The position numbers were made by a program, and so were the translations under genes. Positions 8,337-64,000 of a DNA stretch of 64,000 nt are shown piece after piece. The DNA is from an uncultured Alkaliphilus sp. GTDB lineage: Bacteria > Bacillota > Clostridia > Peptostreptococcales > Natronincolaceae. Under the pieces are notes generated by a model. It saw only the letters and a list, made by a program, of their open reading frames with translations. It was not told the origin of the DNA and did not search any database. The DNA lies in contig CALJEQ010000006.1 of the NCBI GenBank assembly GCA_938074565.1, forward strand, positions 451,672 through 515,671, written 5' to 3'. Within the stretch, counting starts at the first letter, position 1. Each line of letters begins with the position of its first letter.

Positions 8337-8720
8337 ATAGATTTATAAAATCTACAAAAAATATAGGACTTTTGTAATTGGAAAATAATATCAAAAATGG
8401 TACTAGTGATGGATTTTATTGGTAATAAACTAGAGGTATAATAATATTAATCAAACAACAGATGTTGAACAAAGTGTTAATTAAGGTTTATAAAAATTGT
8501 ACTTTGTTTTTTTAGACACATAAATGGTTAAATTTTGCATATTTTACAAAATAATTAAGTTATACAATATTATAATAAGTGTTATAAAATTTATTAGGAG
8601 GTGGTTGCATGAAAAAAATAGTTTTCTATTACATAGTGCTCAACTTCTACTGAAAGATTATGAAAAACTTATGTAAGGTAGGAAACGATGTGTTAAATTA
8701 AAAAAATACTAACGAAAAGG

Positions 8721-57450: not shown

Positions 57451-58056
57451 CTACACCTCTACTGACAATACAGAAGGTCTGATACGGCTGATAAATTCCA
57501 CTGAAAATCCAGTTAGTAAACCTTCAATTATTAACAAAGGAAGATAGTTTACTATAATAAGATGAATTACAGAAAAGAATCCATTACTGTAGTGGGGACT
57601 ACTAAAGTATAAAACTGAAACCAACAATAATACACATCCAATAACACCAATTACACCTGAAATAAATCCTTTAAGGAAAATTGATTTTAATTTAAAAGAG
57701 TTAAAAAATAAATTTGCCATCAGTGCGGGTACTGCTACTAGTAAAGTATTAACGCCTAAAGTTGTTAATCCTCCATGTTGAAAGAGTATAGCTTGTAATA
57801 GCAGGCCAATAAATAAGGCAATGACTGCTTTTCCCCCCAACATAATGCCTAATAGACCTGCTAATAGGGGGTGTACAGAGGTGGGGCCAATCGGTAGACT
57901 AATCAAGGAGAAAACAAAGAAACCTCCCGAAAGCAAACTGATCATCGGTATTTGTTCCTCTTTAACTTTTCTAATTGATTGAAATAATAGACCACCTGTA
58001 ATTGTTGTAGTTGCCACCACCATAGGAATACTTATAACGCCATCTGACAAATGCAT
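57451..58056 (-). CDS. cbiM: ECF transporter substrate-specific component CbiM/NikM
   Basis: N-terminal MHLSDGVISIP (metal-binding His2), multi-TM, GPTSVHPLLAGLLGIMLG. Confidence 0.92.
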   Translation of the reverse strand: MHLSDGVISIPMVVATTTITGGLLFQSIRKVKEEQIPMISLLSGGFFVFSLISLPIGPTSVHPLLAGLLGIMLGGKAVIALFIGLLLQAILFQHGGLTTLGVNTLLVAVPALMANLFFNSFKLKSIFLKGFISGVIGVIGCVLLLVSVLYFSSPHYSNGFFSVIHLIIVNYLPLLIIEGLLTGFSVEFISRIRPSVLSVEV

Positions 58057-58112: not shown

Positions 58113-58205
58113 AAATAATTATGTTAACATAGCAATTTTAAAATATACTAACATCGTATTTATATTCTTATAATCCATACACCGTAGACTCTTAAGAAAA
58201 ATAAA

Positions 58206-58345
58206 TAAGAAGGTATCCTGGCTCAGGTTCATCATTTTTCAACACCTTCCCAGATGTAAATCCAGTGGTAACGTTGAAAACTCTCCTTTACAGTGGCGGG
58301 ACCGCGTTGGAATTTCACCAACTTCCCTTTCATTTCAAAATGAAA
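58206..58345 (-). promoter_or_regulatory. Cobalamin (B12) riboswitch
   Basis: Minus strand: GAAAGGGAAGTTGGTGAAATTCCAACGCGGTCCCGCCACTGTAAAGG...CCACTGG...GGGAAGGTG...GAACCTGAGCCAGGATACCTTCTT (B12 box and conserved core). Confidence 0.95.
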
Positions 58346-58595
58346 ACTTATTTATTAATTATTTAGTTCTCTTTTAATTTACCATAACAGTGGTATAATA
58401 GCAATATAATCCAATAAAACACATTAATATTTACATACTTGAAAACTAGAGTTTAAAATTTGCAATTATGAAAGGTTAATTTAAAAAGAAGTACTTAATT
58501 AATATAATTTATTAGTATAATCACTAAATATGGTTAAAATAAGAGATATATTGATATAATTAACCTTCAATGAATAAGAAAATAGGAGGGATTAC

Positions 58596-62218: not shown

Positions 62219-62569
62219 GGGGGCGTACTGGTTTCGACGGGGGTTTAGATCCTTTAGTAGCGAGCCGTGTTTTGCTTGGTGACACGTAAAAAAACTGGGC
62301 AAAAAAGATAAACGCAAACGATAATTACGCAATAGCTGCCTAGTTGCAGCTCGTTTCTACCTGACCTCCTGCCGTTAGGATAGAAACGCCAACCATGCAG
62401 GGAACGTCTTAAGGGTTGCCTTGACCTTAAGTTGTACAATTGAGGCTGGTTGAATCCAGAGTTTGTTGTTAGACGCTGGAGGAGATGAGATCTAAAATAG
62501 CAACTGCGCTCGGAGAAGCTGAAGGTGAAGGGCCTTCGGACAGGGGTTCGATTCCCCTCGCCTCCACCA
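62219..62569 (+). ncRNA. ssrA: Transfer-messenger RNA (tmRNA); encoded tag ANDNYAIAA
   Basis: 5' gggggcgtactggtttcgacggggg, tag ORF gca aac gat aat tac gca ata gct gcc tag (62314-62343), 3' T-arm ggttcgattcccctcgcctccacca. Confidence 0.96.
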
Positions 62570-64000
62570 CTCAAATCCACAATAGTATTGAATGTGAAGA
62601 CCACAGTAATGTGGTCTTCATTTACTATAATTTCCTTTACAAAATTTTGTATAAAACTTTTGATTTCTACTGAAACGTTGTTAGCTACATTCGATTTGAA
62701 ATGTTTGATGGCGTTTAATATGACTTTCTCATCTACTCTATGTGTTAGAGTATTAGAAATTAGGGTGTCTAGTTCGTATTCTAACTCTGCTTTCTCTTCC
62801 TCACGCTGGCTTAGTTGTTTCGTTATACCGTCACTAATTGCACCGCTTTCAACAAATCCAATCAAGTTATTAATAGCTTTATCTTTTTCTCTAAGCTGAC
62901 TTTTAATTAATTCTATTCTATTCGATGCATCATCTTTTTTTAAAGCTTGGTATTTTGTTAGCTCCTCTATTAAGAGAGGAATATTCTTTGGAGAGAATAT
63001 TTTCGCTGTTAATTCTTTAATGATGAATTCCTCAAGGTATTCTTTTCTAATTTCTTTATTTCCGCATCCCACTTTCCCTTTTCTTAATCTATTATTACAT
63101 CGATGAGTAACATATAGAGTTTTATTTCTTCCAGAAAATTTTCTGTTTCCCGCCATAAAATGATTACATATACCACATCTTACTAAACCAGACAGTAGAT
63201 AAACTTCTTCAGCCTTATGTTGACCTGCCTGCCTATTACGCCCTCTTTCTTTGAGTTTTTTTTGCACTTTATTAAACAATTCCTCTTCTATTATGGCAGG
63301 AAAGGCATTTGGTACTCGAATTATCTCTTCTTCAGATTTTGATTTCCAATTATTCCTAGTACCATCAACTGTTTTTGACTGAGCTCTGTTGAATATATAA
63401 GTACCAATGTACTTTTCGTTCCTTAAAATTCCAGAAATACTATTATTGGTAAATAAATTTCCTAATTTAGTCTTATAACCTTTATCATTAAGTGTTTTTA
63501 CGATTCTTTTGTAGCCAAAGCCAAGTTCATACATTTCAAATATCTCTTTGACTATAACCGCTTCCTTAAGGTCTATAACATATTTCATAGTGTCTCTATC
63601 TACATCTAAACCTAACGGAGGAATCCCCCCATTATGAATGCACTTTCCAGCATTAAGTTTCATAACCTTCATCACTTCTCGAGAAAGATTAGCAGAGTAA
63701 TATTCGTTCATACCGTCTATAATAGATTCCATCATTATAGATTCAGGCGAATTATCGATTCTTTCTAAAACACTCCGTATAGATACTTTATTAGTTTCTA
63801 ATTTTCTCTTGTTAATAACCTTATCATAACGATTACGTGAAAACCTATCTAGCTTATGTACCAGAACAATATCGAATGACTTATATTTACTATCAGCAAT
63901 CATTCTTTGAAATTCTGGACGGTTATCATTGGTGGCAGATTTTGCTCTATCGATGTACGTATTAACAATAATTAAGTTATTATCTAATGCATGTTTTTCA
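62254..64000 (-). CDS. Large serine site-specific recombinase, 5' end truncated by window edge; ORF runs antisense into ssrA
   Basis: Reading upstream of the listed M at 63903 continues the frame to the window edge: EKHALDNNLIIVNTYIDRAKSATNDNRPEFQRMIADSKYKSFDIVLVHKLDRFSRN; Recombinase domain GGIPPLGLDVDRD, zinc-ribbon CGICNHFMAGNRK; the last ~115 codons are antisense to ssrA and probably not part of the ancestral protein. Confidence 0.88.
   Translation of the reverse strand, partial: EKHALDNNLIIVNTYIDRAKSATNDNRPEFQRMIADSKYKSFDIVLVHKLDRFSRNRYDKVINKRKLETNKVSIRSVLERIDNSPESIMMESIIDGMNEYYSANLSREVMKVMKLNAGKCIHNGGIPPLGLDVDRDTMKYVIDLKEAVIVKEIFEMYELGFGYKRIVKTLNDKGYKTKLGNLFTNNSISGILRNEKYIGTYIFNRAQSKTVDGTRNNWKSKSEEEIIRVPNAFPAIIEEELFNKVQKKLKERGRNRQAGQHKAEEVYLLSGLVRCGICNHFMAGNRKFSGRNKTLYVTHRCNNRLRKGKVGCGNKEIRKEYLEEFIIKELTAKIFSPKNIPLLIEELTKYQALKKDDASNRIELIKSQLREKDKAINNLIGFVESGAISDGITKQLSQREEEKAELEYELDTLISNTLTHRVDEKVILNAIKHFKSNVANNVSVEIKSFIQNFVKEIIVNEDHITVVFTFNTIVDLSGGGEGNRTPVRRPFTFSFSERSCYFRSHLLQRLTTNSGFNQPQLYNLRSRQPLRRSLHGWRFYPNGRRSGRNELQLGSYCVIIVCVYLFCPVFLRVTKQNTARY

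Follow-up and report, generated by a model that had tools for sequence, protein, structure and literature searches.

A recombinase gene that reads antisense into the gene for tmRNA (ssrA) raises the question of how the two came to share DNA and whether the shared stretch has any function. Such a pair occurs near the end of the 64,000-nucleotide stretch of an uncultured Alkaliphilus genome that we analyzed (here called the window). The answer reached below is that an integrative element very probably inserted into the ssrA 3' end by means of its own large serine recombinase, and that the junction in the window is attL. The features concerned are as follows.

62219..62569, plus strand: ssrA (tmRNA), found by ARAGORN and Rfam (RF00023, 189.5 bits); proteolysis tag ANDNYAIAA
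62219-62557 and 62560-62569: ssrA bases assigned to the host and to the element, respectively, by attL/attR comparison
62558..62569, plus strand: attL direct repeat TCGCCTCCACCA; identical 12-mer at attR, minus strand of contig C40 of the same genome
62558-62559: probable TC crossover dinucleotide, the first two repeat bases being the center of attP symmetry
62560..64000: in-window portion of the integrated element, continuing on contig C46 and ending at attR on C40, judging from contig overlap, attR, and C40 synteny
62573..62586, plus strand: P' arm AAATCCACAATAGT, inverted partner of the P arm beside attR
62594..62621, plus strand: hairpin (12-bp stem, 4-base loop) just 3' of ssrA, within the recombinase C-terminal codons; -20.8 kcal/mol, z about -5
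62254..64000, minus strand: large serine recombinase ORF (PF00239, PF07508, PF13408), with the C-terminal 581 of 608 codons in the window, completed on C46

A recombinase frame open across the ssrA 3' end

The recombinase gene and ssrA are convergent. As the earlier note had read it, the recombinase frame crosses the ssrA 3' end without a stop; the ORF listing shows the minus-strand frame open from 63999 to a stop at 62254. The antisense-ssrA tail described there exists, although its size was given as ~115 residues and the count is 104 codons. These are the last 104 codons of the gene; the first 3 to 4 are element DNA (the duplicated ssrA 3' end) and about 100 are host derived. Both the recombinase N terminus (MNRCVIYARYSSGNQ...) and the catalytic motif YARYSSGNQ are encoded on C46, which shares a 122-bp exact overlap with the window end, giving a 608-amino-acid (aa) ORF. 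The Resolvase, Recombinase, and Zn_ribbon_recom domains all scored above the Pfam cutoff.

The arrangement exceeds chance, because related recombinases abut ssrA convergently elsewhere and because G002, a genome of the same family, has an in-frame C-terminal recombinase remnant at the same ssrA site. G002 was rejected as an example of a complete element, since this remnant is all that it retains. The right edge of the window coincides with the right end of contig C6, only 1.4 kb from the ssrA junction, which might raise the suspicion of a chimeric contig or misassembly. However, the junction lies inside this 515-kb contig, and several other genomes have equivalent junctions, leaving an assembly artifact with a negligible probability. 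Elsewhere in the window, a cobalamin riboswitch (58191-58366, minus strand, 106 bits) lies upstream of a membrane-protein ORF (57451-58056) that, as judged by eye, has a likeness to cobalt transport proteins.

The displaced ssrA end and the chromosome beyond

A second copy of the ssrA 3' end, marking attR, had been named beforehand as the check on an insertion. A genome-wide scan for CTCGCCTCCACCA, tolerating one mismatch, yielded five sites. The site at 59229-59241 of C40 (minus strand) reads ...ATATTGTGGTTTCGAAACAGTACGCT-TCGCCTCCACCA-ATAAAAGATGAAAACCCACTGTGAAAACAGTGGGTTTTTT, in which the ssrA terminus precedes a terminator of the same kind as that trailing ssrA in relatives. Other one-mismatch copies, on contigs C8, C31, and C62, were rejected as attR; no terminator adjoins them, and the C31 copy lies inside a coding sequence. 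Genes on C40 match a region adjoining ssrA in G018 (71% identity), one ~14 kb downstream of ssrA in G001 (81%), and one ~50 kb downstream of ssrA in G002 (89%). This synteny with DNA downstream of ssrA identifies C40 as the chromosome past the element and the site as attR. The expected second copy was thus found, together with a native-type terminator and chromosomal genes, and the element lies between ssrA and a displaced duplicate of the ssrA 3' end, as an ssrA-integrated genomic island does.

Contigs C46 and C40 each terminate in a genome repeat, and the element interior between them is unassembled; the att arms and the synteny suggest that the two contigs belong to one element. Downstream DNA of G001, which is of the same genus, gave no usable match when used as a probe for the displaced chromosomal side. 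At the C40 contig end near attR is a 141-bp repeat (L193; positions 1645-1785) that recurs at many other contig ends and by eye resembles the 3' end of a group II intron. The end repeats of C40 and C46 had no match in Rfam. Cargo genes on C46 (L011) include a type I restriction-modification methylase and specificity genes (105-2937).

Attachment site symmetry and restoration of ssrA

When the element halves of attR and attL are put together, they reconstruct a symmetric attP, the outer arms of which pair at 12 of 14 positions around TC. None of 20,000 random P arms drawn from the window paired as well, and arms taken from other elements paired at 7, 7, and 10 positions. The reconstructed attP has two inverted arms around a central dinucleotide common to attL and attR, as is the case for large serine recombinases. 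A symmetric two-arm attP is the form of serine integrase sites. The attR repeat and this symmetry support the earlier proposal that a serine-recombinase element integrated at the ssrA 3' end and displaced its own original stop. attL, attR, the direct repeat, the attP symmetry, the restored ssrA, and the extended ORF are apparent in the assembled sequence; the window recombinase presumably catalyzed the integration.

Integration could instead be credited to a tyrosine recombinase, the usual enzyme type at ssrA, with the serine recombinase as a passenger. C46 does encode a phage-integrase-family protein (L011, 3272-3877; PF00589, phrog_216). However, this protein is only 201 aa long and does not adjoin the att site, the attP has the symmetric shape described above, and serine recombinase genes whose 3' ends lie at the ssrA junction are found repeatedly, in Bacillota, in a Moorella phage, and in Fusobacterium. 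We therefore regard the passenger scenario as highly improbable and retain the serine recombinase as the likely integrase.

The element may still be able to excise. That it entered as proposed and has since become an immobile remnant is somewhat unlikely, though the most serious of the alternatives considered: G002 keeps just a C-terminal remnant at the same site, and the element is broken up by repeats, one of which resembles the end of a group II intron. Against this, the present genome has an uninterrupted recombinase ORF running from the start codon to att, and core and arms agree between the two att sites. Directly upstream of the recombinase on C46 is a 66-aa ORF without a family match (8378-8578), followed by an HTH_3 regulator and then ORFs without Pfam matches. 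Similar-looking ORFs (SR..LY near the N terminus, leucine-rich C terminus) precede the recombinase at loci L196, L057, and L178. By eye only, the 66-aa ORF is a candidate partner or directionality factor.

Recombination at TC, 12 to 11 bases before the ssrA 3' terminus, would join host ssrA to the P' half of attP. The first bases of this half duplicate the final 10 of ssrA (GCCTCCACCA), so that the acceptor strand of the tmRNA is restored along with CCA, and the former ssrA end and its terminator are pushed out to attR. The predicted attP junction of the circular form is ...ATATTGTGGTTTCGAAACAGTACGCT/TCGCCTCCACCACTCAAATCCACAATAG..., and the predicted empty attB is ...TTCGATTCCCC/TCGCCTCCACCAATAAAAGATG.... 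G001 has no such recombinase, yet its ssrA trailer is partly similar (AAATCCATGATA versus AAATCCACAATA); part of the P' identity may therefore be common to host ssrA trailers.

Elements with the same layout

Three independent elements with both ends known, two from Paenibacillus and one Moorella phage, have the same geometry, with the center at repeat offset 1. In Paenibacillus montaniterrae, attR lies 44 kb from ssrA with the native terminator AAATCCACAACC-GCAAGA-GGTTGTGGATTT. The element of Paenibacillus HW567 (~25 kb) has the weakest attP symmetry (9/14). Its P' copy contains the restored strand CGGCTCC, which fits the variant acceptor strand of the host, GGGGCCG, as restoration requires. 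An 86% ssrA fragment 28 kb away (L183) was rejected as attR of this element, being a different displaced fragment; attR is at about 5990948 of G020:C1. The integrase of Moorella phage MCACPph1 (OR602863.1, WPA89741.1) is 40% identical to the window recombinase, and its ORF likewise runs antisense into tmRNA. The repeat CCGCCTCCACCA occurs near both ends of the phage record, with the same attP geometry. Unlike the present element, this is a phage genome record with the central dinucleotide CC, and the tmRNA overlap is unannotated in it.

Related recombinases end convergently at tmRNA in Paenibacillus (two), an Oscillospiraceae genome (L109), the Moorella phage, and a Fusobacterium replicon. At L105, the protein match stops just short of the adjoining tmRNA and the frame is interrupted. 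Other recombinases of the group overlap tRNA-Pro, -Arg, -Asn, -Asp, and -Leu genes with the same antisense pattern. A single clade of ssrA-targeting recombinases was rejected: of the six, five belong to a well-supported group of 18 that has other members as well, L109 sits among the tRNA-overlapping recombinases, and the starred branches of the tree require the ssrA label to have changed at least twice.

The Fusobacterium replicon (L197; F. animalis pSB029A, NZ_CP077186.1) is a 218-kb sequence labeled "plasmid" that carries ssrA and hemW, with a similar recombinase at the ssrA 3' end. Within the family of the present genome, partial ssrA copies were seen in G006, G009, G010, G011, G015, and G017, several of them 5 to 20 kb from ssrA on the same contig, which suggests repeated island insertion at ssrA. 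At L025, L027, and L031 (genomes G005, G010, and G006), the ssrA match does not extend past base 336, which is in the T-loop region, and gives way to foreign group I intron-like sequence; this sequence had no Rfam intron match at the gathering score.

The ssrA-encoded tail of the recombinase

Because the recombinase gene ends at attP, the codons beyond the core change on integration. The circular form would encode ~23 element-derived terminal residues, while the integrated form has ~100 antisense-ssrA codons. In the reconstructed attP, the recombinase frame ends with AYCFETTISRQELYQQFSSFIKS after GGGE. Such attP tails (AYCFETTISRQELYQQFSSFIKS, LTLLKTLSVRYINLKLGKNTIKAKG, and others) have no obvious common sequence among the elements compared. 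Within the tmRNA group, the attL tails contain between 6 and 104 ssrA-antisense codons, the window having the most. The same antisense frame is open for 6 to 69 codons in the element-free ssrA genes of relatives, which indicates that the openness of the frame comes largely from ssrA itself.

These observations bear on whether the integration state acts as a switch, with the ssrA-encoded tail altering recombinase activity and coupling excision to the C terminus. The C terminus does differ between the attL and the reconstructed attP forms in all four elements examined, and the same possibility was raised for the recombinase DsiB by McMurdie et al. 2011 (PMC3146451). The variable attL tails, the dissimilar attP tails, and the frame already open in element-free relatives nevertheless make a switch very unlikely. 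The link between excision and a changed C terminus put forward in the earlier note found no support, as the tails are unconserved in both states. Most simply, the long tail would be a by-product of the position of attP at the end of the gene. It looks incidental, with no mark of selection on the 104 codons, and is probably functionally neutral.

A hairpin beyond ssrA

The hairpin at 62594-62621 is possibly a substitute terminator for ssrA, although it lacks a canonical T-run and was not called in the terminator scan. We consider it unlikely, while worth stating, that the 3' end of the recombinase gene is dual coding, specifying the C terminus on one strand and a replacement tmRNA acceptor strand plus a substitute terminator on the other. 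In favor of this, G002 keeps the hairpin, two of its pairs having changed on both sides (read by eye), and L105 and L109 also have strong hairpins. Against it, no strong hairpin is present in three ssrA-adjacent relatives, and L178 has one without ssrA. As a group trait, the hairpin is unsupported, the tmRNA group overall differing little from controls. If the dual coding were real, the recombinase, the host ssrA variant, and the terminator would coevolve.

Relation to known islands and significance

The use of ssrA by a serine recombinase, which the earlier note considered notable, is less so because it has been published for DsiB, found at ssrA genomic islands of Dehalococcoides (McMurdie et al. 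2011, PMC3146451). The dsiB gene always overlaps attL and reaches a stop only upstream of the island, inside ssrA if needed, or in a neighboring island; its native stop was called unclear (PMC3146451). Those islands have a 20-bp repeat and insert in the T-loop between 333 and 334 (PMC3146451). Compared by described features, the present locus is like DsiB in having a serine recombinase beside ssrA, an ORF over attL, and a stop within ssrA. It differs in phylum, in its 12-bp repeat, and in its TC core 11 to 12 nt before the 3' end, and the small serine recombinase DsiA and the six-gene module of the Dehalococcoides islands have no counterpart beside the window recombinase. A serine recombinase of ssrA with its ORF over attL has thus been known since 2011; the present case extends it to other phyla and has another crossover point. 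Further precedents may exist, one open-access library having been searched.

The element also resembles a tyrosine-integrase island in a tRNA gene, in that the 3' part of the gene is targeted, the island restores the gene, and a displaced fragment marks the other end. The differences are that the enzyme adjoining the att site here is a serine recombinase, with no tyrosine integrase adjoining it, and that the attP is short with symmetric arms.

Restoration of the 3' ends of essential RNA genes is usually credited to tyrosine integrases. The four elements with both ends mapped indicate that serine recombinases restore ssrA too, with a 12- to 14-bp repeat and a fixed core position. Their relatives overlap tRNA genes likewise, and the attP/attB pairs are ready-made at a conserved gene. 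The layout also explains a recurring annotation artifact, in that recombinase tails such as GGGEGNRTPVRR are antisense tmRNA or tRNA.
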